Source of the DNA: Rhizophagus irregularis
Lineage: Eukaryota > Glomeromycota > Glomeromycetes > Glomerales > Glomeraceae
Direction of reading: 5' to 3'
DNA length: 64,000 bases
Assembly: GCF_026210795.1 (NCBI RefSeq)
Contig: NC_089450.1
Coordinates: forward strand, 2,604,001-2,668,000
The first letter of the stretch is position 1; the number at the start of each line of letters is the position of its first letter. The position numbers were made by a program, and so were the translations under genes. Shown here in pieces: positions 19,980 through 61,327 of this stretch. The notes beneath the pieces are model-generated. The model was not told where the DNA came from. It saw only the letters and a list, made by a program, of their open reading frames with translations, and did no database searches.

Positions 19980-20515
19980 TGATTGTAAAAAGACGATTTA
20001 TAGCTCGTTGGAATCGCCTCATCGAGACAAATCGAATGGTGGTAAGCTCATCTCTTTGTGATCAATATTGACGGAGTTATTACTTAAAAACCATTTAATA
20101 TTTTTTAATTTCGGAAATTGATCTAGTGATTGGATTTCGATGTATCTTATACCATTAGATTCGTCTCATCAAGACGAATCAAATGGCGGTAAGATCGTCT
20201 TTCTAGGATCAATATTGGCAGAGTTATTACACAAAAACCATTAATATTTTTTTAATTTCGGAAATTAATCTAGTGATTGGATTTCGACGTATTTTATACC
20301 ATTAGAACCGTCTCATCAAGACGAATCAAATGGCGGTAAGATCGTCTTTCTAGGATCAATATTGGCAGAGTTATTACACAAAAACCATTAATATTTTTTT
20401 AATTTCGGAAATTAATCTAGTGATTGGATTTCGACGTATTTTATACCATTAGAACCGTCTCATCAAGACGAATCGAATGGCGGTAAGATCATCTCTCTAC
20501 GATTAATATTGGCGA
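19980..20515. repeat. 147-bp tandem repeat inside pogo-like element
   Basis: About 3.5 units share the phrase 'gtgattggatttcga', recurring at about 20126, 20273 and 20420 (period 147). Each unit holds the palindrome gattcgtc..gacgaatc and an 'aatggcggtaagatc' box. The same palindrome and box recur at 26998-27060 and 27170-27215 in a different transposon family, and at 58385-58930 in the second pogo-like copy. Confidence 0.8.
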
Positions 20516-20887
20516 AGTTACGTTACAATAAAGTTTTAAGTATAATTCTGGCTAAAATTATGTTAATTTTTGGCCGGAATTATGATATACAAATATAAGA
20601 AATTTTTTATATAGTCACATCTCTTTATAATCACCAAATATGGACTGTCCCAAATGTGTGACTATAAAGAGAGTTGACTGTACCTGACAAATCTTTAGCG
20701 TTAGGTTTCAAAAAATGAGAAAAGTTAGTTTTTTTAATATTTATTTAACTTGACTGTCACATTAATATTGACGTGAAAAATCTGATAATACAGAAAATTT
20801 ATTATTGTTGATCAAATCTCATATGTGACTTTAACATGATAGATATCTTTAATAAATCAAAAAACATTAATCTAAGTTTAGTAGTTA

Positions 20888-26841: not shown

Positions 26842-27376
26842 CACAGGTCGAAAAGTAAAAAATCAGGCATCAATCAGTCACCAATCGGTCACTAATCAGG
26901 TACCTGATTGGTGACCGATTGGTGACTGATTGGCATTTTCGCCAAATACCGTCACCAATCAGGCAGTTTGCTAACTTTTGATCCAGTGATCAGAAAAGAA
27001 TGAAATATAGCTCATTGGAATCGTCTCAACAAGACGAATCTAATGGTAGTAAAATCGCATCTCTAGAATTAATAGTTAATAAAATATTAAATAAAATATA
27101 AATGATACATTTTATTTTTATATTTTACTTAATTTCTCATCAAGTATTAATCCTAGAAATGCGATTTTACTACCATTAGATTCGTCTTGTTGAGACGATT
27201 CCAATGAGCTATATTTCATCCTTTTCTGATCACTGGATCAAAAGTTAGCAAACTGCCTGATTGGTGACGGTATTTAGCGAAAATGCCAATCAGACACCAA
27301 TCAGTCACCAATCAGTCACCAATCAGCTACTGATTGGTGACTGATTGGTGCCTGATTTTTCACTTTTCAACCTGTG
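26842..27376. mobile_element. Foldback element with CACAGGTYGAA ends (535 bp)
   Basis: Ends cacaggtcgaaaagt and cacttttcaacctgtg are inverse, flanked by cgt on both sides (26839-26841 and 27377-27379). Nearly the whole element is one imperfect palindrome centred near 27100. The arms contain repeated 'caatcagtcac' words and the box gaatcgtctcaacaagacga, which is also found in the pogo-like elements. Its core (ccgtcaccaatc.ggcag) recurs in the foldback element at 38660-39011. Confidence 0.85.
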
Positions 27377-33436: not shown

Positions 33437-34489
33437 TTCCAAAGAATACGCCAAATGCAATACATACATTTTGGATGTGTTTTGAACGTGCACTTGCTAA
33501 CAACAAAAAAACTCCTGATGGAAAACAACATATACTTTCTATAATTTCCAATGAGTTTACCTATGGAGAACTAAAACAAAATTTGAATGTAATATTTTAT
33601 AGTTTTGCTTTATATGTAAAATTTTAATGTACACGTTCTTGAATTATTTATTCTTTTATTTTTAAAATTATGTAAATAAACTAGACATAAAAAAGACAAT
33701 GAAAAATTTGCAAAAAATTATTACTGATACAATAATGTAAAATTTTATATTGTTTTTATAATAAATATATACAGGTTGGTTCACATACTATTGTAGAATC
33801 TCGCAAGCATGCACGTATCAATAGTTATAGATCCCCTCCACTTGTAAAACCAATAATTTGCCGATGAAGGTTTACACCTGAAATGCTTGAACAAATTGAC
33901 AGATTTTTAAATGATAAAGAATTTGTCAATATGAGTTCATACAAAACTGATGCAAAATCAGGAAAACCAATCAAATACTTACAAGACACGAAAAAAGCAT
34001 TATGGGAAAGATTTGCAGAAGAGTACCCTAATGGTATGCATCGTACATCTTTTATGACATGTCTTGAAGGTGGTCAATATATGTACCAAGAAAATTTAGG
34101 TGGATTATATTTTACATGTAATGACTGTAGTTATATGGTATTTGGAGATATTGGAGTAATTATTTCTGCCCATGTTATGGATGAATCTCTAAAGGTAAAA
34201 ATAAATTTTATTAAAATTTGCAAGTATGAATTCTAATATATTTTATCTTATTCACAGGTCGAAGGGCACCATTATCCAAAATTCAAAAAATGCAAATTCC
34301 CTATTTTCCTGGAAAATGGTGGGAAATTGTGGAAAATGCTGCATTACGCTGAGCAATTTTTTGGAATAGCATTGTTACAACATTATCCGATTTAGCAAAT
34401 TTTATAAATTTTATGAAAATTTGGGAAAATGCTACATTATATCTCAAATGTAACATTTCGTAACATTATTATAACATTATCAATTAAAT

Positions 34490-34800
34490 CAAATTTTGCT
34501 TTTTTTTTGTCAAATGTTCCAATTTTCTTGCAAATGGTGCATTTTTATGAAAATTCCACATTTTGCCTCAAATGTAATAACATTTCATAAAATTGTTATA
34601 ACATTGTCAATTAAAATTAAATTTTGCTTTTTTTTTGTCAAATGTTCCAATTTTCTTGCAAATGGTGCATTTTTATGAAAATACCACATTTTATCTCCAA
34701 TGTGATATCATTGTAACAACATTTCATAAAATTGTTATAACATTGTCAATTAAAATCAAATTTTGTCAAATATTCTGATTTCCTAGCAAATGGTGCATTT
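34490..34800. repeat. Subterminal tandem repeat, about 120-bp unit
   Basis: Two and a half units share 'ttgctttttttttgtcaaa', 'cttgcaaatggtgcatttt' and 'cataaaattgttataacat'. They lie in the left subterminal zone of the 5.3-kb element. Confidence 0.75.
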
Positions 34801-35819
34801 TTTAATGAAAATTCTATATATTTTGTCAAATGTTGCATATTTTCAGCAAATTTTATGTTTTTTTGGTCAAATGTTTCACTTTCGTCAGAATATTAAAATG
34901 TTACATTTTTTTTTTGAAAATGCTCAATAATATGGCATTACACTGGAAAATGTAGCATTTCACCAAATTACACTAAAAAGCATCACAATTATCACATTTT
35001 TTGGAAAATTCCACATTACATTAAATTATACTAAAAAATGTAGCACTATACTAAATTATGCGGCATTGCACTAAAAAATACCACAATTACACTAGACAAT
35101 GTAGCATTACACTAAAAAGTACCACAATTATTATATTTTTTAGAAAATTTCGTGTTATACTGGAAAATGTAACATTATGCTAGAAAATGTGGAATTGCAC
35201 TAAAAAATGCAGAATTGCACTAAAAAACGCGGAATTGCGCTAAAAAACACAAAAAAAATACTACAATTATACTGGATAATGTAGCATTACACTTAATTAC
35301 ATTAAAATTGTTAATTTTTATTTTTATTTATTTGTAAATTACGAACATTATTAAATTTATAATATTTATATTCTAAATGAATTATTTAACATTAAATCAT
35401 ATTATTAATATAAACAATGTATCAACACGATGTGTTGTGATGTTTAATTTAGTACTAAACCTTACTACTGAAGACTCCCTCTTTTTATCACTATAAACAG
35501 GCGGAGGGAGCAGCAATGGCTCTTCCCCTATAGGTACTCTATGGCCTCTACCTGTTTACAAAGGAGGGGCTTTTCGTAAAGTTATTAGATAGATATATAT
35601 ATATGTATATATATAAGTATATATATACATCTATCATTAAATTTATAAAAAAAAAGAAAAAAAAGTTTCGGGGAAAAGCCCCTATTTATATTAAATTTTT
35701 ATCACGTGCATCACGTGATATTACTTAATAATTACGGAATTACCGCAGCTTCAGCTGCGGTACAACGAAAAAAAAAAATTAAGCTTTTTTTAGCAAAAGC
35801 TTAATTTTTTTTTCTCACG

Positions 35820-36080
35820 GCTCTCAATTTTCTATTCTTTTGTCCTTTCCCATTTTCTCTTTCGCTTTCACCATACCTCTTTCTCCCTTTCCTCTTCCCT
35901 CTGCCCTTCCCTTCCCTTCTCTTTTTCTTTCCATTCCTTCCCTCTTTCACTTTCCCCTTCCTTCTTTCGCTTTCACCTTCCCTTTTTCTCTCCCCTTCTT
36001 CCTCTTCCTTCTGCCCTTTCCCTTCCCTATTTTTCTCCCACTCTTTCCCTTTTCTCTCCCCTTTCCTCTTCTCCGGAATC
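35820..36080. repeat. Polypyrimidine tract (CT-rich)
   Basis: About 260 bp of C and T with few purines (repeated 'cccttccctt', 'ctttccc'). It is open in one frame only because it lacks A-containing stop codons. It sits immediately 5' of the first intron-like donor (36100). Confidence 0.85.
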
Positions 36081-36099
36081 GTCCTTCAGAAAAACAATG

Positions 36100-37563
36100 G
36101 TAAGTTTCAAAGTGAAATGCTTCGAAACTTTTTTAAATTCTTTTTTTTTAATTCTTTGTTGTAAGGAAATGTTTCTAACGTTTCCTTTCTTCTTTTTGTA
36201 GGATTTTTGATGTTTTGACTTTAGGAAACGAGGGAACGAAATGATGGTAAGTTTTGAAGCATTTTCGCTTTGAAACTTTAAAAAAAAATTTTTTTTTTAC
36301 TTTTATTAGGAACATTTTTAACGATCCTTTATTTTTTTTGTATAGGTCCTTCGGCATGCTTCTTTGGGATTCGAAATGGTAAGTTTCGAAGCATATGCTT
36401 CGAAACTTTTTGAAATTTTTTAATTTCTTTTAGGAAACTTTTCTAACGTTTCCTTTCTTTCTTTTTTTGTGTAGGTCTTTCGGTATTCGACTTCGGGAAG
36501 CAAGGAACTGAAAGGGTAAGTTTTGAAGCATTTCGCTTCGAAACTTTTTAAAAAAAAATTATTTTTTTTTTAATTTTTTGTAAGGAAACATTTCTAACGT
36601 TTCCTTTCTTTCTTTTTTTGTGTAGGTCTTTCAGTATTCGACTTCGGGAAGCAAGGAACTGAAAGGGTAAGTTTCGAAGCATTTTGCTTCGAAACTTTTT
36701 AAAAAAAAATTATTTTTTTTTTAATTTTTTGTAAGGAAACGTTTCTAACGTTTCCTATTTTTTTTTGTAGATTTTTCGATATTTGACTTTGGAAGGCGAA
36801 TCGGTAAGTTTCGATGCGTGTTGTTGTATGCTTCGAAACTTAAAAAAAAATTTTTTTTTTTGTAAGGAAATGTTTCTAAGTTTCCTTTTTCTTTTTGTAG
36901 GAACGCCGGACGTTTGGATGATGAGTTCGAAACGAACCAGTGAGTTTCACAACATTGTGTTGCGAAACTTTATTTTTATTTATTTCTTTTTAAGAAACGT
37001 TAACTAACGTTTCTTTATTTTACTTTTTGTAGGTTCCAGACGTTAGGATGATGGTAAGTTTCACAATGTTACATTGCGAAACTCAATTTTTATTTTTTTT
37101 ATTATAAGAAACGTTTATATTAACATTTCTTTTTTACTTTTTGTAGGTTTCGAACGTTAGAATGAGTGAAACGACCGGTAAGTTTCGCAATGTTACATTG
37201 CGAAACTTAATTTTTATTTTTTTATTATAAGAAACGTTTATATTAACATTTCTTTTTTACTTTTTGTAGGTTCCAGACGTTAGAATGATGGAAACGAACC
37301 GGTAAGTTTCGCAATGTTACATTGCGAAACTTAATTTTTTATTTTTATTTTATTAAAAGAAATGTTAACTAACATTTCTTTCCTTCTTTTTGTAGGTTCT
37401 GGACGTTTGGATAATGGAAATCAAAACGAACTGGTAAGTTTCGCAACATTGTGTTGCGAAACTTAATTAATTATTATTTTTTTTAAGAAATGTTAACTGA
37501 CGTTTATTTTCTTCCTTTTTGTAAGAATGCCAGACGAAATTACGATCTGGACTTTGGTGAAAG
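36100..37563 (+). other. Array of 11 intron-like units with micro-exons
   Basis: Eleven GT..AG units of 92-110 bp alternate with 21-45-bp spacers. Units: 36100-36201, 36247-36345, 36379-36474, 36516-36625, 36667-36770, 36804-36900, 36940-37032, 37054-37146, 37178-37269, 37302-37395, 37434-37525. Each opens GTAAGTTTYG (one GTGAGT), within a palindrome such as aagtttcgaagc..gcttcgaaactt. It then has an A/T tract, a second palindrome ggaaacgtttctaacgtttcc whose centre CTAAC or TTAAC looks like a fungal branch site, a T-rich tract and TTTTTGTAG. Spacer lengths (45, 33, 41, 41, 33, 39, 21, 31, 32, 38, 38) are not phase-consistent, and the first is closed by stops in all frames. It is therefore probably not protein-coding. 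It may be a spliced non-coding transcript or a repeat that mimics introns. Confidence 0.75.
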
Positions 37564-37564
37564 G

Positions 37565-37860
37565 TAATAAGGGAAAGGGAATTAGGGGAAATTTTTTTTT
37601 TGTTTATATCTAATTTATTAAATTTTTGTTTCTTTTTCTATTTTTCTTTAAGGGAAAGGAGAAAACAAAAAGGAAAGGGTAAAATGTAAAGGAAAGAGTA
37701 AACAAAAGAGGAAGAGGAAATGAAAATAAAAGGAAAAAACGAAAATGGAAAAGGAAAAACGAAAGGTGAAAAGGGTAAAACGAAAGGTGAAGGTGAAAAT
37801 GAACGGGAAAGGTGAAAATGAATAGGGGAAATGAAAGGAAACAGTGAAAATGAAAGGAAC
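37565..37860 (+). repeat. Purine-rich tract
   Basis: This is rich in gggaaagg/gaaaatga words from about 37565, interrupted by a T-rich stretch, and continues 37650-37860. It forms a strand-asymmetric counterpart to the pyrimidine tract at 35820-36080 on the other side of the array. Confidence 0.75.
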
Positions 37861-37869
37861 ATTTCGAAG

Positions 37870-38196
37870 GTATACTTCGAAATGTTTGTTTTTTATTTTG
37901 ATTTTTTTTAACGAAACATATTAATGTTTCATTTTTTTTATATTTTTTAGGTTTGGCGGCTCATTGGACAAACCGGAATTCAATATTTCGAAGGTATACT
38001 TTGAAATATTTTTTTTATTTGATTTTTTTTAACAAAACGTATATTAACGTTTCATTTTTTTTATTTTTTAGGTTCAACGGTTTTTGGACGTATGGAATTT
38101 AACATTTTGAAGGTATATACTTCGAAATGTTTCTTTATTTTGATTTTTTTCAACGAAACGTTTATTAACGCTTCGTTTTTTCTTTTTTCTTTTTAG
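37870..38196 (+). other. Second intron-like sub-array, three units
   Basis: Units are 37870-37950, 37994-38071 and 38113-38196 (78-84 bp). Here the donor is GTATAC, and the palindrome spans the exon-intron junction (catttcgaag|gtatacttcgaaatg). The second palindrome is gaaacgtttattaacg..ttcg with TTAAC, then TTTTTTAG|GTT. The same subtype opens the array at 52140. Confidence 0.7.
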
Positions 38197-38659
38197 GTTT
38201 TCACCGGCTTCTAATTTGGCACTGGACATTTGATATATGATTGAATTAGAGTGTGGATCCATAGATCATTGGATATCCGATGAATATAGATTATCGTTAA
38301 ATAATAATAATTGTGCATTTATTAATAAATAATATTATAATAAATTGTGTAAAATTATTAAACCAGTGTTTTAAATTGTCATGGCATTCACACTAAATTG
38401 TTTAAAATTATTACTAAATTTCACACAATTGTCTGAAATTATTGCAAAATTTCACTCAATTGTCCAAAATTATTGCAAAATTTCACTAAATTGTCTCTGA
38501 AAATGTTGCATTTTATACCGTTTACACTCAATTGTCCAAAATCGGTAAAACATTTTCACTCAATTGTCTAAAATTATCCTAAATTTCACTAAATTATTCA
38601 AAGATTTAACTAACATTTACCGAAAAAATGCAAAATTTACCACAATTTGTATTACATTA

Positions 38660-39011
38660 CACAGGTCGAAATTAGTTAAATAAGGTATCAATAGGTTATC
38701 AATCGGCTATCAATAGGCTACCCTATTGGTAGCCTATTGAACTTGCGCCATAATCCGTCACCAATCGGGCAGGCTGATTGATAACCTATTGATAACCTAT
38801 TAATACCTTATTGATAACCAATTTGATAAAAATACCAATAGGATACTAATAGGTTATCAATAAGTTATTAATTGGCTAACAATCAGCCTGCCCGATTGGT
38901 GACGGATTATGGCGCAAGTTCAATAGGCTACCAATAGGGTAGCCTATTGATAGCCGATTGATAACCTATTGATAACCTATTGATACCCTATTTAACTAAT
39001 TTCGACCTGTG
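38660..39011. mobile_element. Nested foldback element (352 bp), CACAGGTCGAA ends
   Basis: Ends cacaggtcgaaattag and its complement lie at 38660 and 39011. The whole sequence is a near-perfect palindrome centred near 38835, built from 'caataggttatc' words. The core ccgtcaccaatcgggcag is shared with the foldback element at 26842-27376. The flanking trinucleotides (tta and gtt) do not match, so the target duplication is lost or the boundary differs. Confidence 0.7.
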
Positions 39012-39099
39012 GTTTGCACAACATTGTTGAAAAATTCACCTAAATTTTTAACAATTTATATAACATTACTAAAAATACACTACAATTCACTACAATTTG

Positions 39100-39330
39100 C
39101 ATTACGTTAGTATAAAATTACTAAAAATTCACTATAATTTACCACAATTTGCATAACGTTTGCATAACATTACTAAAAATTTAACTAAATTCACCACAAT
39201 TTGCACTTCGTTTACATAACATTACTAAAAATTTGACTAAATTCACCACAATTTGCACTTCATTTACATAACATTACTAAAAATTTAACTAAATTCACCA
39301 CAATTTGCACTTCGTTTGCATATCATTACT
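39100..39330. repeat. Subterminal tandem repeat, about 55-60 bp unit
   Basis: Four copies of 'cattactaaaaatttaact', 'aaattcaccacaatttgca' and 'cttcgtttacataa' lie in the right subterminal zone of the 5.3-kb element. Confidence 0.75.
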
Positions 39331-40794
39331 AAAGATTTGCCTAAAATTTCCCACAATTTGATGATAATTTACTGAAAAATTTCTCAACATTTGAATTAGG
39401 AATTCTGTAGGAATTCCGCTATTTTGACAAAATTTGCCAAATTGTAAGACCTCCATTATCCAAAAATTGTAACACAATTTACCCCAATTTACCGGGATAA
39501 TTCTCAATTTGCCAGAAAAATTCCAGGCAAATTTTGCGACAATGACATCTGTTCGACCTGTGATTAGAAACGTTTATTAACAAAATCACAAGAATTGCGT
39601 TAATACATACATCGAGAATATTCAAAAGAACTGGAAGTTACAGCAGCTGGTATCGCAGTTCATAATTCCTGTATTAGTCATTGTATACGACATGCCTTTG
39701 GAGACTGTAATCTTAATCATCCAGTTACCTGTTCAAAATGTGAAAGTATTTTTAGTTTTTTTGAAGAATTAAAAGCAGCAATAAGTGAAGAGTATTTTGA
39801 AATTCTTGATGAATATCAGCAAAAACTCATAGCATGGATGGCACATCATGCCCGTAAAACATACTTGAATATTCATGTACGAACAAATTTAGAAGAATTG
39901 GATGAAGAAAGTGCTGTAATGATTGTAGATTACAAAATGAGGATATTACCTCAAAGTGCATGTGAGACCGAAACAGAGTTTTTTGGAAAATGTGATTGGA
40001 GTTTTTATTCTGTACTTGTATATACCAAAAATATGGAACAAAATCGACTGGATGTTCAAGTATTTGATCATTAGTCTAACGATACGCGCCAAGATGCATG
40101 GTTTACTGCATCTTCCCTCCATACTGTAATTGAAACATTGAATCCAAAACCCAAATGGGTAACAATAATGTCAGATAATGGCATGCATTACCACTGTACA
40201 GAGTTAATGTTGATTATTGCACATTGGGTCGTCGGGCTGGATGTGGGAGGTGCAAGCACCACCCACCTCCGGGTCTACGACCCGTCGCAGTACCTATATG
40301 GCTCCTACGGGGCTTAGGAATCCCCATATATCTGCCACAATCTGGGATAACATATGGAACAAATATATATACCAAATAACTAGAAAACAATAGAAAAGGA
40401 AGCAATAACGGATATAATGAGAGGGTTGTCCCGGACGTGGCAGATGTAGCAGATGTTTCAGAAAAATTATAAGAGGACATCCCCCCAGAAAAAGTTTTAT
40501 TTTTACCCCCCAGATCTGCCACATCCGGAACATCTGGAACAAGTCAGGATTCCGTCTAATAATCTGTTGGAAGCAGTGAGATAGCAAACCAGGTAAGTTA
40601 GCAGGTAAGCCCCTAGAAGGTCTATAGAGCCAGTAAGACCAACCCTGTCCTGCCCCCGTCAGAAAAAATAAGTAATTGAACAATGGGTATACCATAAGTA
40701 ATATACAATGATGAACTTACACGCAGCCACTTTTCTTGCTGAAGACCTCGGACTTGATCTTGTAGACATCTATGGAATCCGTAAATAGATCCAA

Positions 40795-48800: not shown

Positions 48801-51800
48801 AAAGACCACGTGATATTTAAACGAGAAGAGAATAATAAAGAATTGAACAAAGAATGTATTCGCAATGAAAAGGTATAGGACCATGGTTCCAGGTCAATAG
48901 TAGAAGGACAGGCATCACAGTCCAAAAAACCTTGGAGATAAGTAATCATATAATTGGCAAAAGGTTTGTATGAAGGGTGAGAAAAAATTTTCTGCCATGA
49001 AGCCACATGGGATAAAAGAAAATGACCAAATGCTTGTTGGATTGAAAATGGTAATAATGTGAAAAGCGCAGAAAGAGGAGTGACTGAGGCAAGACCAGCC
49101 TTTTGTCGAATAAGAGAAAGCATTGGAGAAACCATACGATTGATGGTAGATTCTGCAAATAATGTGGTTTGTAGGCGAAATTCAAGCCTCGGAAGTAGGA
49201 CAACATTATAGAGATAAGCCACATGTTGAGCCAAAAGCTTTTTAGGACTAAGTAAAGCAGCCATGTCTTTAACCATAGATGTAGTTTGGTTGTGAACAAA
49301 ACGAGAAGAAGCCGAAAGGCAGAACCAAACACCTAAAAAACGGAAAGACGTTGATAAGGCTAAAGCCTTTAAAGTAAGGGTAGAAGTCATAATTAAGGGA
49401 GACGGAAAAAGATCAAACTCTATAGTTTGTGAAAATTGTTCAGAAGAAAGAAGGATATATTTTGCTGAGTTTGCTTGAGTATTATTTAAGGTATAAAATT
49501 CAGCAGTAATGGAAAGGCGATCTTCAATGCCTCATTTAGATGAAGCAATTAAAGTAGAATCATCCATAAATGTAATATGCGAAATAGGAAGACTGTATTG
49601 TTCGTATTCAATTGGAGAATAATCCAATAATGCAGCAGATTTCAAGATAAAGGGATCACAAGCTTCTCGATTAAGTGTGGTAAGCAAAGGATCCAAGTAA
49701 ATAACCCATAATAATGGAGAAATGATTTCACCCTGGTCAATACCAATTCTAACTCTATATCCAGAAGTATCACCATGATGGGTAATAATTTTATTATTAC
49801 GTCTTGTAAAAAGGTTGATGATAAATTTAATCAATAAAGACGGTATATGTAGACGGATTAAAGCTAATCTGAGCATGTTTAAATCAATTGAGTCAAAGGC
49901 CTTAGAAATGTCCTGAGAAACAATCCATAATTCTTGGTCATCGCTTTTATCAAAGCGTCGTTGATGAATAATAGCATCCAGCATCTTAATAGGGATATCA
50001 GTGGAACCACCTGGCAGTCCAGCAAAATTACCACCTTGGAGTACATGGTTATCAGCTAGGATTTTTGAAAGACGAGTTGTAACGACCTTAACCACACATT
50101 TTCGTACAGTTTCCAACAAAGTGATAGGTCGCGTATTCTTCAGTTGGGCATCAAATTCATGAGGCTTTGGAATAGGATAAACAAGCGCTTCACGCTAATC
50201 AGCAGGAATATCTCCATGAATAAGGCAGGCATTTGCTAATACAAGGGACAAATCAAAAGCTTCTCCAGTTAAATGTTTGAGCATCTCATAAGAGATCTTG
50301 GAAGGACCAGAGGCTTTATTATTAGGCATAGAATTGAGAGTGTTCTTCCATTCATCGGCCAGAATAGGAGACATGACCAAGTTGTATAATGATGAGTCAA
50401 TGTCAGGGAGAGGAGTATACGCACGTTGCCATCGTGGAGGAAATGAATCTGTAGAAGAATACTGGACCAAAAGAGGGGTAACAACCGATTGGAAATGTTT
50501 GATAGCCGCTTGTTTAATATCCAAAGGATCAGTAAGAAGAGTGGGTTTAGAGTCAATTACAACCAAAACTCTGTTAAGAACGATAGAACGATGTTCCACT
50601 GATAGGGCTGAAGAAATAAAAGAGCCCGGAGACGTAGAGAAGTGTTCATCTCTAAGAGCAGTATAATATTCAATGGAATCGACATGATGTTAGTGAAATT
50701 GCGTGGAAAGATAAGCTGAGACCAAAGCTTTTTGTGAACGCAAAAATATGATAAAGGTGGGAAGTGGTGTCATACTATAAGAAGGTATAGTATAATCTTT
50801 TAAAAGAGATTTAAGAAGAGTTAATTGGGTAGGTAAAGAATTGATCATTTGTGAAATTTGAGCAGGACGACTAGACCTAGATGTGGTCAATTTAAACAAT
50901 AATCTATCCAAGAATTTGTTGATAGCAATAAGCATGGTAAGCTCGGGAGGATATTTATGATGGTGAGTATTGGATACATGTTGAAATAGTAAAGAATCAA
51001 TGGCACCACCAAGAATAGAACGTTTAAGAGCGTGCCAAAGTTTGTCCAAAGAAAGAGCTGAAAGTGAAGATATAGAAGGATGATGTGTGGCCAAATACAA
51101 CTCAAGATGTGAGTTTACTTCATTAGAAAATTTGTCCCAAATATCGTCCTTCAAATTTTTGTAGAGAAAAATGGTGCGTTGTTCACTTTTTTGTTTTAAT
51201 CTAGCTTTAGCCAAAGTAGCGAAACAGGAGCTAAAATCAAAAGCCATTATAAGTACACAGTGATCAGTAAATTGATTATCGTTCAGCTTAGGACAAGTTT
51301 CAACTTGAGAGAAAAGACCAGGAGCAGGAAATCCAGGAGAAGACCAAATATAATCAAGTCGTGAAGAACCATTCTGATAATAAAAGGTAGGACTAGGACC
51401 TGCAGTTGAGGAAATATGGGATTGATGATCTGTAAACACTGGTCAAATGATGAAATATCGGGTAATAACGTATTGGTCAAATATCAGGAAATAATCAGAA
51501 ACCCGATATGGCATGATAGGCAATATTAAACATTTACAAGTATCGGTAATCCGAAATGTTTAATAATATTTTATGAAAAAAATCTGATTTTTTAAAGACA
51601 TATCATTAAAATATCAGAAAATTTTATTATACCTATCAGTAGTCTGATAGGTCATTGGAATAATTTACGGCATGTAATTATTTCTATTCCCACAAAAATC
51701 TTCGATCTTTTTTTTAATTGATAAACTTTTTTTTTTTACACTTTAAAGTTAATTTTTTTTTAACTTTTTTCTTACAATACTTTAAATAAATAAATTTTTA

Positions 51801-52093
51801 TCACACCTTTTGAAGAACCAAATATTTAACTCGAAATCAAATTTCTAACTTCTGGCAAGCTCGTCCAACGTTCGGAATATAATCTGCAACATGCAGAAAC
51901 GGATTAAAAAGTTTCACTTTAGTAGTCTCCGGACTTCTTTTCTTTTGAAGGAAACGCCGGACTCTTGGAGACTTTAAGGAAGCCGAAGACATATACCGGT
52001 ATCTAAATTAGTTCCAGTCTTCCGGAGTAAGCAAAAAATTTTTTTTTATTTGTTTTAATGAACGTTAGCACTAATATTCTTTTTTATTTTTTA

Positions 52094-54760
52094 GGTCCAG
52101 AACGCTGAAGGTATAGGTTCGGAATTCGACATTTCGAAGGTATACTTCTTCGAAATAATTTATTTTTTTATTTTTTCGACTAGCGAAACGTTTATTAACG
52201 CTTCATTTTTTTTGCTTTTTTAGGTTCGGCTGGGCAGCTCCTTGGAGACGGAACTCGATATTTCGAAGGTATACTTTGAGTATACTTCGAAATAATTATT
52301 TTTTTGTTTTTTTCGACTAACGAAACGTTTATTAACGTTTCGTTTCTTTTTTCTTTTAGGTTCGGCTTCTTTGGGCGGCTTCTTGGCTTCTTGGACGGAC
52401 GGAAATCAATAAGACATTTTGAAGGTATATATACTTCAAAATGTCTTTCTTTTTTGGGTTTTTTTTTCAACAAAACGTTTATTAACGCTTCGTTTTTTTT
52501 GCTTTTTTAGGTTCGACTTCTTTGGGCGGCTCCTTACTCGACATTTCGAAGGTATACTTGAAGTATACTTCGAAATATATTTTTTTTTTGTTTTTTTTCA
52601 ACGAAACGTTTATTAACGTTTCGTTTTTTTTTCTTTTAGGTTCGGTTTCTTTTGGGCGGCTCCTTAGACGGACGAAATTAAATTCGACATTTCGAAGATA
52701 TACTTCAAGTATACTTCGAAATATCTTTTTTCATTTTTCAACGAAACGAACGGTAAGTTTCGCAGCAGCGTTGCGAAACTTACAATTTTTTTTTTCTTTG
52801 AGAGTTTGAGAAACGTTATTCTGACGTTTCTCTCTTTTTTTTGTAGGTTCAAGTGGGGAGCTTCGAAATGGCAAACCTCGAATGGTAAGTTTCACAACGC
52901 GAAACTTATTTTTTATTTATTTTTTTGTAAGAAACGTTATATTAACGTTTCTCTTTTTTTTGTAGGTTCAAGTATTTCGGCCTTGTGAAATTCAAAATGA
53001 CGGTGAGTTTCGCGACGTTTAGTTACGTTACGAAACTTAAAAAAATTTTTTTTCTTTGAGAAACGTTATATTAACGTTTCTCTCTTTTTTTTGTAGGTTC
53101 AAGTGTTCGGCTCGGTGTTTCGAAACGGTAAGTTTAAACATTGCGAAACAATCTTTTTTTTTATTCTTTTTTTTGTAAGAAACGTTATATTAACGTTTCT
53201 TCTTTTTTTGTAGATACTCTCTGGATATTGGATTTCGGTTAGGTTTCGAAGTTTCGTTTTGAAACTTCGATTCTTTTTTTTATTTTTTTTTTTAAAGAAA
53301 CGTTACTAATGTTTCTTTATTTATTTTTGTAGGCTCCCTTCGACTTTTATACCGGACTGGGATGCTAAGGCCTAAGAGAGGGTAAGTTTCAAACTTTCAA
53401 TATTTTTTTTATTTTTCAAAGAACGTTTCTAACGTTCTTATTATTTTTTTTTTTGTAGAATCTGTAGGCTCCGCCGCTCCGGTACTCTAAGGTCGAAATG
53501 GTAAGTTTCGTAACGAAAATCGTTACGAAACTTTATTTTTTTTAGGCCACTCCAATTTAATAGTTTGTTTAACGTACCCCACCCCCCTCATTTTTGAAAA
53601 ATTTTTAAAAATAAACAAACATATGTTATATCACGTGACTTATAATAACATCACCGATCTGTATAATATTTAAAAGAATTTCTTTCCAGTATAATTGAAT
53701 CTACCAAAGAAAATGGTATAATTAATAAAAGTAATATATGTAAACTTATTAATTGCATTATCTGTAATAAATTAAGATGTATTTTTAGTAAAAATGCATT
53801 GAGTGATAAAGAAAAAACTATGTTTATTTTTAAATGTTTACTTAATTTGACCCCCTCCCCCCCCTCAATTTTTATATAAAGTTAGGACGTTAAACAAACT
53901 ATTAAATTGGAGCAGCCTTATTAAGAAACGTTTTAACGTTTCTTTTTCTTTTTTTTTGTAGGATTTGTTGAGCTCGGTATTTAAATTCGGTAAGTTTTTT
54001 TGTCGAAACTAAATATTTTTTTTTCAATAAATCGGATTTAGATATATGGGGGCTGTTAAAGAAACGTATCAACGTTCTTTTTTCAATTTTTTTAGGTTAC
54101 CGGACTCCTAGGAACTTGGAAGTCTCGGTATAATATATGGGTGGCGTATGACGTTTGATTGTGTTAAAGAAACGTACTAACGTTTCTTTTTCATTTTCTT
54201 AGGTTACCGGACTTGGAAGAATCCGGTAAAATATATGGGAGGAGTGTATGGCGTTAATTGTATTAAAGAAACGTATTAACGTTTCTTTTTTTCATTTTTT
54301 TAGGTTACCGGACTCCTAGGAATTTGGAAGAACCCGGTAAAGTATATGGGGAAGTGTATAGCGTTGGTGTTTAATTATGTTAAAGAAACGTATTAACGTT
54401 TCTTTTTTGTTTTTTTAGATTACCGGACTCCTAGGAATTTGGGAGAACCTGGACTTAGGTATATGGGATAATGCGGTGTATGGTGTTTAATTGTTTTAAA
54501 GAAACGTACTAACGTTTCTTTCTTTTTTAGTAGGAACGCCAGACAAGATTACGAACTGGACTTTGGACGAAAGGTAAATAGAAGGGTTTTTCTATTTTTT
54601 TTTTGTAACATTTTTAACGTTACTTTTTTCGTTTTCTTGTAGGTAATTCGCTCAAGATGAAATTGACACAAGGTACCAGAACTTATTTTTTTTAATATTT
54701 TTCGTTAAGAACGTTTACTAAACATTCTTTTTTTTTATAGAGAACGAAATAATATTTCAC
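52094..54760 (+). other. Second intron-like array, at least 12 units
   Basis: Clear units include 52140-52223, 52269-52359, 52425-52510, 52552-52639, 52753-52846, 52885-52965, 53003-53096 and 53128-53213. More divergent ones follow to about 54735. Early units use the GTATAC donor with a junction-spanning palindrome. Later ones use GTAAGTTTCG with an intronic palindrome; the last group (54090-54530) has lost the 5' palindrome. Nearly all keep gaaacgttaNtaacgtttc upstream of a T-tract and TTTTGTAG or TTTTTAG. Spacers repeat gttcggcttctttgggcggc, gttcaagt or gttaccggactcctaggaa. A late spacer (gccagacaagattacgaact) matches the last spacer of the first array. One unit is interrupted by a MITE. 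Confidence 0.75.
53545..53917. mobile_element. PIF/Harbinger-like MITE (373 bp) inside an intron-like unit
   Basis: Ends ggccactccaatttaatag and its near complement are flanked by tta (53542-53544 and 53918-53920). The inverted repeats extend about 32 bp (to 'tttgtttaacgt'). The interior has C-tracts (cccaccccc, ccctcccccccc) and no gene. It lies between the 5' palindrome and the branch-site palindrome of one intron-like unit and is the innermost insertion of the stack. Confidence 0.85.
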
Positions 54761-54885
54761 TCACAATTTTACCAAGTCAAAATCAACCTAATCCACCACA
54801 ATCTAATATCCATCTTCTGCTTAATTCGTTTGGTATTAGTAGGCAATAGTTCGGAAGAGTTGGCATAAAAACTTTGGGAAAAATA

Positions 54886-54937
54886 GTTGTTTGTTGGAAT
54901 CGAACCAACTGGAATAATATTCCAAACCATTAACAAC
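54886..54937 (-). ncRNA. tRNA-like fold lacking a D-arm
   Basis: On the minus strand, gttgtta (acceptor-like 5' strand) is followed by a perfect 5-bp stem-loop tggaa-tatta-ttcca. A perfect T-arm gttgg-ttcgatt-ccaac (with the B-box GGTTCGATTCC) comes next, then aaacaac, which pairs with the start at six of seven positions. A D-arm and a normal 7-nt anticodon loop are absent. It is not a standard tRNA; it may be a degenerate tRNA-derived segment. Confidence 0.35.
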
Positions 54938-55985
54938 ATAATGTAGATAGATAGAATAGGATAAATTAACGAATATAATTTTTAAAAATATAATAATAAA
55001 ATAAATATATATATATGTTATTATGTTAAATAAATAAATAAATGAATAATATATAGTATATATAAATGAATAAATAATAAGTTTCGGGTTTCGATGTAGC
55101 AAATATACATCTAATATTATAAATAGTTCGGAGAAATATCGGATTGCTGAAATTCTCCCGATATTCATATAGCACTTTACCGTTATGTTCTAACCTGAAA
55201 GTCACATGACTTATACCTGATCTGCGCCGAGAACCGGTCACAAATCGGGTGGATCGATCAGCTGCCATTCAGGTTAAAATCGAAAACATATAATAGGGCT
55301 ATCGGGTATATGAAATTTACCCGGTAGCCCTTCATTCGACCAGTGAAAATATCGAGAAGAAAGTGATCGTAAAATTTTTAAATGATGTTGAGGAAGATGT
55401 GAATGTGAAATTTCATCTGCATTAAAATCGCCAAGGATGACTACGTGATAGTTATTAAAGCGGGCTTTATCAAGCCATAAATTAAGTTGGGCAAAAATAG
55501 CATCACGTTCTTTGTAATGAATAGAATGATAAGGAGGAATATAAACAGAAATAATAGAGATTTTTGTTTGATGGAAAAAAAGATCTAATTTTAAAAGACG
55601 ACCTTTCCAAGGATCAATCTTCTGAACATGTTTATGTAAAGGATGGCGAAGTAAAAGACCAACACCATCATGAGGTCGTGAATTAGAAGGGGAAGGAGCC
55701 CAATAGGACTTAAAATTATGTTGGGAATGTTCATTTTGATAAATAAATTTAGCACTGGAAGAAGTAAGACGAGTATCATTTAAAGATAAAATGCCAAAAG
55801 AAGAATGGAGAAAATAATTTAACAAGTGTAGTTGTCGAACAGGGGAACACAATCCATTAACATTGATTTGTCCAAAAGTAACAAGAGGGGAAGAAGAAAA
55901 AGAAGGACTATTAGGATTATTAATATTAGGAATCGCACTATTAGGGGGGTGAAATCCCTGTGATGCATCCGATATAAATTGGTGT

Positions 55986-58109: not shown

Positions 58110-58384
58110 AGTTAAAGCTCAGTAAAGAGGAAAGCAACTGTGGAAATATTAGTATATTGAACGAGCACTTAGAAATTTTTGAACGAAAATTTCAAAAATA
58201 AATTTTTATTAGTATTTTCAAAAATTCAGGAAAGAGTTGCGATGATCCTCATATTTGGTGATTATAAAGAGATGTGATTATATAAAAAATTTCTTATATT
58301 TGTATATCATAATTCCGGCCAAAAATTAACATAATTTTAGCCAGAATTATACTTAAAACTTTATTGTATCGTAAATTCGCCAAT

Positions 58385-58930
58385 ATTAATCGTAGAGAGA
58401 TGATCTTACCGCACTTCGATTCGTCTTGATGAGACGGTTCTAATGGTATAAAATACGTCGAAATCCAATCACTAGATTAATTTCCAAAATTAAAAAAATA
58501 TTAATGGTTTTTGTGTAATAACTCTGTCAATATTGATCCTAGAAAGATGAACTTACTACCATTCGATTCGTCTTTATGAGACGAATCTAATGGTATAAGA
58601 TACATCGAAATCCAATCACTAGATTAATTTCCGAAATTAAAAAATATTAAATGGTTTTTAAGTAATAACTCCGTCAATATTGATCACAGAGAGATGAGCT
58701 TACCACCATTCGATTCGTCTCGTCTCAATGAGGCGATTCCAACGAACTATAAATTGTCTTTTTATAATCACTAGGTACCGAGAAATCTAGCAAAATGTTA
58801 AATGGCGCAGTAAACGTAAATCAAGAAATATTATAATGCTAATGTTTAACATTTTGTTGAATAACTCGTCAGCCAGTGATCGGAAAAGGATAAAACTACC
58901 ACCATTCGATTCGTCTCAGTGAGACGATTC
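58385..58930. repeat. Tandem repeat of pogo-like copy 2
   Basis: This is the reverse complement of the 147-bp repeat family at 19980-20515, with about three units recognisable by 'gattcgtct' palindromes at about 58426, 58563, 58714 and 58908. It lacks the SINE-like insertion, so the site 'agttttatccttttcc' is uninterrupted here. Confidence 0.75.
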
Positions 58931-61079: not shown

Positions 61080-61327
61080 TCCTTTTTTTTTTTATTCTTT
61101 TCTTCTCTTTTTTATTCTTTTCTTCTCTTTTTTATTCTTTTCTTCTCTTTTTTATTCTTTTCTTCTCTTTTTTATTCTTTTCTTCTCTTTTTTATTCTTT
61201 TCTTCTCTTTTTTATTCTTTTCTTCTTTTTTTTATTCTTTTCTTCTCTTTTTTATTCTTTTCTTCTCTTTTTTATTCTTTTCTTCTCTTTTTTATTCTTT
61301 TCTTCTCTTTTTTATTCTTTTCTTCTC
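61080..61327. repeat. 20-bp pyrimidine minisatellite, about 12 copies
   Basis: The unit ttcttttcttctctttttta repeats with almost no change (exactly three units per 60 bases); one unit near 61220 has ct to tt. It is open in all plus-strand frames only because of its composition. Confidence 0.95.

Follow-up and report, generated by a model that had tools for sequence, protein, structure and literature searches.

What is the tandem array of intron-like units at positions 36100 to 38196 of this stretch of the Rhizophagus irregularis genome, and what might keep its splice signals intact? The stretch, here called the window, spans 64,000 nucleotides (nt) of contig NC_089450.1 (assembly GCF_026210795.1, forward-strand positions 2,604,001 to 2,668,000). 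A preliminary description had called the units intron mimics. On balance, we favor the reading that the array is a noncoding, many-intron transcription unit carried as cargo by a transposon, in which splicing, and not a product, would be the selected property. Positions are window coordinates, and the array lies on the + strand.

The units carry all the signals of U2-type introns

We found 14 GT..AG introns of 78 to 110 nt between 36100 and 38196, 11 of a first type followed by 3 of a second type. They are separated by micro-exons of 21 to 45 nt and by one 344-nt exon; in order, the spacers measure 45, 33, 41, 41, 33, 39, 21, 31, 32, and 38 nt and then 344, 43, and 41 nt. The array and the leader before it are laid out as follows.

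35840..36090, + strand: C/T-rich leader before the first donor (91% pyrimidine); presumed promoter or 5' end
36100..36201, + strand: first-type intron 1, 102 nt
36247..36345, + strand: first-type intron 2, 99 nt
36379..36474, + strand: first-type intron 3, 96 nt
36516..36625, + strand: first-type intron 4, 110 nt
36667..36770, + strand: first-type intron 5, 104 nt
36804..36900, + strand: first-type intron 6, 97 nt
36940..37032, + strand: first-type intron 7, 93 nt, GTGAGT donor
37054..37146, + strand: first-type intron 8, 93 nt
37178..37269, + strand: first-type intron 9, 92 nt
37302..37395, + strand: first-type intron 10, 94 nt
37434..37525, + strand: first-type intron 11, 92 nt, 3' end TGTAAG
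37526..37869, + strand: 344-nt exon, G/A-rich from about 37653, its composition complementary to the C/T-rich leader
37870..37950, + strand: second-type intron 12, 81 nt, GTATAC donor, stem-loop across the exon-intron border
37994..38071, + strand: second-type intron 13, 78 nt, GTATAC donor
38113..38196, + strand: second-type intron 14, 84 nt, GTATAT donor

First-type introns share one order of parts: a start of GTAAGTTT or GTGAGTTT, a donor stem-loop (AAGTTTCGAAGC..GCTTCGAAACTT) that begins 1 to 3 bases inside the intron, an A/T linker, a second stem-loop that contains the branch point (GGAAACGTTTCTAACGTTTCC), a pyrimidine tract, and TAG. In introns 12 to 14, the donor-side palindrome spans the exon-intron border, with GGTATA between its arms. 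Judged by sequence signals, donor, branch point, pyrimidine tract, and acceptor of the U2 type were found in all 14 units. Because none of the sequence signals expected of a working U2-type intron is missing, the label of mimics is not supported.

Several details of the preliminary description had to be amended. The TAG acceptor that it gave to every unit is present in 13 of 14, unit 11 ending in TGTAAG; of the starts that it listed, GTGAGT belongs only to the unit at 36940. Its term "near-identical" was an overstatement, since mean identity is 0.81 among units 1 to 6, 0.85 among units 7 to 11, 0.72 between these two groups, 0.84 among units 12 to 14, and 0.65 between units 12 to 14 and the rest. 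Each of the three frames of the first spacer is indeed interrupted by a stop (read by eye), but the statement that spacer lengths are not multiples of three was only half right: among the 10 spacers that precede the 344-nt exon, 5 have lengths divisible by three (45, 33, 33, 39, and 21 nt).

Chance was assessed with a chainer that joins donor, branch point, pyrimidine tract, and acceptor, with 40 dinucleotide shuffles of the region as the control. The window region gave a run of 10 introns with a score of 94.4, while the longest run in the shuffles was 3 introns and their best score was 13.0, which excludes chance for the array. The chainer omits or misplaces some units: it joined 10 of the 14 window introns, and some called exons of 60 to 80 nt probably conceal a missed intron.

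The design is widespread in the genome (146,748,485 bases in 32 contigs were searched, and the arrays fetched are part of the genome's total). We found GTAAGTTTCG at 1,717 places (reversed control, 220 places) and the two-stem-loop pattern GTAAGTTTCG..CGAAACTT..GTTTCYT at 258 places (reversed control, 0). Among 100 listed two-stem-loop places, 69 had a same-strand neighbor within 1.5 kb and none had an opposite-strand neighbor. BLAST with the array gave at least 230 matches, a lower bound because 40 of 730 candidates were scored. An Rfam search of the window gave no match at gathering thresholds, and one 31-nt donor stem-loop had no exact match in viral contigs, a collection from which records near this genome were possibly left out.

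The array lies within a putative CACTA-type transposon

Terminal inverted repeats of CACTA/CMC transposons begin with CACTA, CACTG, or CACAG, and the elements make a 3-bp target-site duplication (TSD). Around the array we found inverted ends of this kind, CACAGGTCGAA, over 11 bp.

34253..39562, + strand: putative nonautonomous CACTA-type (CMC) DNA transposon, 5.3 kb, 11-bp inverted ends CACAGGTCGAA, TSD ATT (34250-34252 and 39563-39565)
34253..34263, + strand: left terminal inverted repeat, CACAGGTCGAA
39552..39562, - strand: right terminal inverted repeat (TTCGACCTGTG on the + strand)
38660..39011, no strand assigned: 352-bp palindromic miniature inverted-repeat transposable element (MITE) with the same terminal motif as the carrier, nested in the carrier's right part; no TSD seen

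The claim of a tandem array of complete introns within a transposon is thus supported, with 11 + 3 units inside 34253-39562. No CACTA-type transposase was found among the stop-free frames of the window element, the longest of which (up to 135 codons) are of low complexity. The array looks like cargo of a nonautonomous CACTA-type transposon, and in the elements that bear arrays, the array appears to form the middle. Read by eye, the carrier seems to have landed in a host intron, directly ahead of the acceptor (AG at 39566-39567; GTAAAAAT at 34195), and both of its flanks resemble parts of one gene.

Other copies share these ends. A 3-bp TSD was found in four of the five array-bearing CACAGGTC copies with both flanks read (ATT in the window, CAT at L052, TTA at L053, and CAT at L014) and not in the fifth, L054; by eye, the L014 element interrupts coding-like sequence. 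The right-end pattern occurs at 83 genome places (6 for the reversed control) and the left-end pattern at 56 (0 for the control), not counting the window's own left end, which is one base off the pattern; 42 of the 56 pair with a right end, and 24 of these 42 elements hold a BLAST-found array. For 34 of the 40 BLAST-scored arrays, the nearest exact right end GTTCGACCTGTG within 8 kb downstream lies on the strand of the array, and for none does it lie on the other strand; 6 arrays have no such end, and in three of these (L028, L047, and L049) the right end is altered. Whether such units always sit inside CACAGGTC- or CACTGGTC-ended elements had been asked beforehand; most do lie upstream of GTTCGACCTGTG, but CATCAGCAAG-ended elements hold related arrays too, so the answer is no.

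The listed two-stem-loop places reach across contigs 1 to 10, where there are 18 paired-end elements. All 14 elements there shorter than 7 kb hold such introns (8 with a BLAST array, 4 with three to eight listed introns, and 2 with one), while in 3 of the 4 longer than 7 kb no such introns were found; the fourth, of 9.5 kb, has an array. Of the 100 listed introns, 43 lie inside elements on the element's strand and 0 on the opposite strand. One of these three long elements, L067 (contig 5), and a further long relative, L068 (contig 16), have the family ends and no array by BLAST or pattern search, and in neither does any intron chain reach a score of 20. Several long frames run antiparallel to the element direction in each of the two. 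For L067, one of four frames tested matched PF02992 (Transposase_21) with an E value of 1.7e-4, below the Pfam cutoff (21.3 versus 28.6 bits). L068 is 93% identical to L067 across most of its length; L067 is about 81 to 88% identical to the window element in the end regions and does not share its middle. L068 has the TSD GTG/GTG, and L067 has none. The Plavaka profile PF18759 gave 123 genome matches with no link to the family ends established, and the long relatives came from end pairing instead.

Splice sites are conserved between lineages

We compared copies in three ways. The projection test took sites with flanks at least 60% identical from 26 loci (107 ordered pairs at 72 to 80% identity). 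At this distance, splice-site GT was intact in 0.924 of cases (n = 725), compared with 0.531 for exon GT (n = 1,013) and 0.615 for other intron GT; splice-site AG was intact in 0.896 (n = 694), compared with 0.277 for exon AG (n = 725) and 0.671 for other intron AG. The unit test set 228 units of 21 loci against the raw sequence of other loci. In its 0.75-0.80 bin, splice GT, AG, and branch A were kept at 0.973, 0.975, and 0.962, compared with 0.78 to 0.79 for the remaining intron, and in its 0.70 bin, GT and AG were kept at 0.908 and 0.981. In the third test, of the window element against eight copies, splice GT/AG was substituted in 7 of 356 aligned cells. Non-CpG substitutions there affected 3.7% of 82 branch A cells, 13 to 14% of stem regions, 12.7% of linkers, 18.7% of micro-exons (with 9% gaps), 9.5% of the G/A-rich exon (almost all from one copy, L052), and 7.5% of the element outside the array.

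In two young copy groups, one of 10 members (mean pair identity, 0.961) and one of 5 (0.976), 5 of the 560 cells at splice GT/AG differed, a rate similar to that of other non-CpG array sites, and exon CpG sites changed about 5 to 13 times faster than non-CpG sites. We read this as copies that would decay neutrally after insertion, while lineages still moving would keep their splice sites. Exon sequence drifts while splice sites stay, which favors splicing itself as the benefit. The proposal that the splicing apparatus and not a product is conserved was upheld by these three tests and by the open reading frame (ORF) test below. A lack of constraint on GT/AG in other copies had been named beforehand as part of what would mark the array as a plain satellite; between lineages, the comparison gave the opposite result.

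Stem-loops recur at the donor and the branch point. Among 347 distinct introns, a donor-region stem of at least 9 bp was found in 162 (about 5 in shuffles) and a stem of at least 7 bp over the branch point in 220 (about 16 in shuffles). In a covariation test with selection on the outer donor stem only (215 introns with 40 distinct arm pairs; null, 1,000 re-pairings), inner donor-stem pairs 1 to 3 formed in 0.78, 0.80, and 0.65, compared with null means of 0.34, 0.59, and 0.37, each above the maximum of the 1,000. RNAalifold on 33 introns, a biased set chosen for having stems, gave two-sided changes at 5 of 12 pairs.

Other readings of the array

Among the alternatives, the one that survives best, though we consider it unlikely, is that the mature spliced RNA is the functional product, a structural or regulatory RNA or a decoy, with leader and G/A-rich exon pairing as a long hairpin after splicing. 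The leader recurs: of the 23 family loci scanned, 22 have a 150-nt window of at least 88% pyrimidine no more than 800 nt upstream of the called array (L028 is the exception), and its best 150-nt window begins 172 to 257 nt before the first called donor at 15 of the 23. For the joined window transcript of 1,145 nt, a minimum free energy of -323 kcal/mol and a long leader/G/A-exon pairing are predicted, and the G/A-rich exon has fewer substitutions than the micro-exons. However, the pairing is barely above what composition gives (-132.8, compared with -122.2 +/- 5.9 and a lowest value of -136.1 in shuffles), and in 10 loci of related subfamilies, no purine tract comparable to the G/A-rich exon was found downstream of the called array. 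In addition, the micro-exons are the fastest-changing part of the array, and exon number and length differ among copies. We set the hairpin aside as a function because it is mostly compositional and was not seen in every subfamily. The leader is plausibly a promoter.

Less probable again is harm reduction, according to which the splice sites allow the transposon to be removed from host transcripts after it lands in a gene. The apparent placement of the window element in a host intron and of the L014 element in coding-like sequence would suit this. However, about 1.4 and 1.85 kb separate the outermost splice sites from the element ends, so that element sequence would stay; the introns function in one orientation only; and a single donor-acceptor pair would be enough, 14 not being needed. 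The same inset of the splice sites and one-way direction of the introns leave the suggestion that the array makes the element "spliceable in either host context" unsupported.

We give somewhat less credence still to a tandem satellite or DNA palindrome array, for example of transposase binding sites, with incidental splice signals. The palindromic CpG-containing stems, the tandem layout, and the variable unit number speak for it. Against it, no positions are better conserved than GT, branch A, and AG, the stems stand at fixed places relative to donor and branch point, arrays keep a single orientation, and other arrays have a similar intron design with different stems.

A decayed or unusual micro-exon protein gene, such as an effector-type gene with repeated exons, is improbable as well. 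Exon 1 ends in ATG directly before the donor in many printed copies, and an excerpt of PMC11333574 describes repeat-containing SP7-like effectors of R. irregularis with conserved exon-intron structure. Yet when the micro-exons of 28 arrays (chain score of 60 or higher, seven or more introns) were joined, the mean length of the longest open stretch was 61.1 codons, compared with 59.7 in shuffles, with a lowest single p of 0.07. Joined exons are thus no more open than shuffles, the array looks noncoding, and we rejected a coding gene. Runs of 31- or 38-nt exons differ in number between related copies, which would shift the frame and which a coding sequence could hardly withstand. By eye, the joined frame from the exon-1 ATG runs for 3 codons before a stop in the window, for 12 in L030, and for 10 in L043.

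Least probable is the one-by-one insertion of introner-type mobile introns into the transposon: many similar introns do occur across several transposon families, but the lengths of same-register repeats on either side of single introns equal those of the re-paired null (347 introns), so that the introns were probably not inserted one by one, and exon-plus-intron units repeat jointly with constant exon lengths (31, 31, 31, 31, 38, and 38 nt in L043). Single-intron transposition was accordingly rejected for lack of border repeats, and the constant-length repeats make tandem duplication of the unit the likely route of growth; an excerpt of PMC4974935 describes a plant gene in which tandem duplication led to intron gain.

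Related arrays occur in other carriers

A second array-bearing transposon lies in the window.

51437..55345, + strand: second array-bearing transposon, ends CACTGGTC, TSD AAA; called intron runs at 52753-53213 (4 introns) and 53990-54642 (6 introns)

In the CACTGGTC family, a 3-bp TSD was found in five of seven copies with both ends read; for an eighth copy, only the left end was found. A 221-bp piece of the 51437-55345 element occurs at 18 genome places, the window included, with 98 to 100% identity, which indicates that the CACTGGTC-ended family moved recently. The CATCAGCAAG-ended elements noted above, at L009 and L015, hold related arrays; their ends are CATCAGCAAGTTT, and their 2-bp flanking repeats are AT and AG. 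Going by the ends, the intron module has three or more kinds of carrier, of which the first two may be related to each other.

Several other repeats were seen. At 53542-53918, an insertion of about 375 bp with inverted ends of approximately GGC(C/T)(A/G)CTCCAATTTAATAGTTTGTTT lies in an intron of the second array element and is missing from the L021 copy. A 535-bp MITE at 26842-27376 has ends CACAGGTCGA/CACAGGTTGA and TSD CGT, with a 537-bp relative in L019. Tandem units of 147 bp at 20011-20520 and 58381-58720, the first called as an 85-nt intron plus a 62-nt spacer, belong to a repeated element also found in L010, L012, and L021 at about 92 to 97% identity, perhaps another intron-bearing repeat. 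At 61088-61327, a 20-bp unit is repeated 12 times with a 99% match, a very young minisatellite. The minus strand of L013 (6025-7913) has 15 called introns of a different design, with the donor near the palindrome center (CCAAGATTC GTAAGTAC GAATCTTGG-like) and the branch point in GAACGGTTACTAATAACCGTTC. L019 (1873-2855) and L033 (3404-3971) hold simple arrays with a repeated exon of 25 to 26 nt or 19 nt between introns, that is, satellite-like exon-plus-intron units.

A model in which being spliced is the selected property

The sequence data support the intron anatomy, the transposon context, the orientation, the noncoding exons, and the constraint pattern. Transcription from the leader, actual splicing, and mobilization by the long relatives are steps that we infer. 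According to our model, long relatives with matching ends presumably mobilize the nonautonomous array elements, and the array would have grown via tandem duplication of exon-plus-intron units, each with a GTAAGT-like donor beside a stem-loop, a CTAAC-type branch point in a second stem-loop, a pyrimidine tract, and AG. Transcription from the C/T-rich leader would yield a pre-RNA with an intron every ~130 nt. Lineages that still transpose would retain their donors, branch points, and acceptors as their exons drifted in sequence and length. The cell may treat the densely and efficiently spliced transcript as a proper mRNA, shielding it from nuclear decay and RNA-dependent silencing; the protected element would then stay transcribed and accessible to transposase. 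A transposon under splicing-linked surveillance would benefit from a transcript that looks fully spliced. In an excerpt of PMC3744415, mRNA levels in Cryptococcus rise cumulatively with intron number and intronless RNA is degraded, and R. irregularis transposons carry CpG methylation plus small RNAs according to an excerpt of PMC8647823. We draw this protective role of dense splicing from analogy and offer it only tentatively. Just as speculative is the idea of a mobile intron cassette, acquired by at least three differently ended transposon groups, whose sole maintained function might be to be spliced and so to take advantage of a host that recognizes legitimate mRNA by its splicing.

A number of observations weigh against the reading of the array as a spliced, splicing-selected unit. 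Because the reference in the eight-copy comparison was annotated by its own intact sites, its rate of splice-site loss is biased downward by up to a factor of two, and half-rates are the fair comparison; the splice-site deficit holds against half-rates of stems and linkers (P = 6e-5) and of exons (P = 1e-8) and is weak against that of the element outside the array (P = 0.042). Six further splice-GT cells fall in alignment gaps, outside the 356, and the alignments may match paralogous units, inflating exon divergence. In the unit test, exon flanks were kept at 0.875, compared with 0.79 for intron interiors, a comparison in which local alignment favors flanks. Donor-stem pair 4 did not covary (0.42 versus 0.33). 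CpG changes in stems did not favor the G-U-compatible direction (TG, 25; CA, 40; two young groups), so RNA-level selection on stems is not independently confirmed; the inner donor-stem pairs lean the opposite way, toward G-U (16 G-U versus 7 A-C among printed types). No intronless retrocopy was found: of 74 matches to a 199-nt joined-exon query, none ran more than about 4 letters past a junction (40 of 49 candidates scored), and this search is no evidence on splicing either way. Apparent long matches of joined L050 exons to loci were dropped, as we attributed them to an 80-nt miscalled exon. Lastly, an excerpt of PMC11075540 gives R. irregularis about 40 AGO-like genes, only one of them significantly expressed.

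Whether genomes distinguish self from transposon by splicing is an open question, mostly studied with transgenes. Transposon copies that vary both in intron number and in which splice sites are intact look like that experiment run repeatedly by natural selection, and the public data on RNA, small RNA, and methylation in this fungus could relate intron dose to expression and to escape from silencing. The arrays also offer a route to rapid intron multiplication. They may account for part of the unclassified repeats of arbuscular mycorrhizal genomes, which make up about two-thirds of the transposable elements there according to an excerpt of PMC11075540.

Comparison with known systems

Among the listed titles and abstract openings from the open-access literature, we saw no account of introns arrayed in tandem within a transposon. 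The main texts of PMC11075540 and PMC8647823 do not contain the word "intron," and "tandem," "Rhizophagus," "Glomero," and "Mucoromycota" do not appear in PMC9860276.

The carrier resembles nonautonomous CACTA/CMC-EnSpm transposons in its CACAG/CACTG ends, its 3-bp TSD, and ends common to longer elements with a weak Transposase_21 match; unlike them, it has a one-way intron array with noncoding micro-exons as cargo. Introners, described in an excerpt of PMC9860276 as multicopy introns with shared sequence that are linked to DNA transposons, are likewise similar introns in many copies with such a link. The introns described here, in contrast, stand in tandem inside the transposon, have no TSD around single introns, and probably multiplied by exon-plus-intron duplication. 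In the intron gain by tandem duplication described in the excerpt of PMC4974935, the duplication brings splice signals along, as it would here; in the array, this would have happened many times over and in noncoding mobile cargo. Genes with micro-exons or repeated exons, such as the Bicycle genes of aphids named in the excerpt of PMC11333574 and the SP7-like effectors, share the many small or repeated exons, but they code for protein, whereas open frames in the array exons are at chance level. Finally, the Cryptococcus surveillance by stalled spliceosomes and introns (excerpts of PMC3744415 and PMC5554785) ties splicing to transcript level and transposon silencing, as our model does; there it is a system of the host, whereas here the transposon would exploit it.

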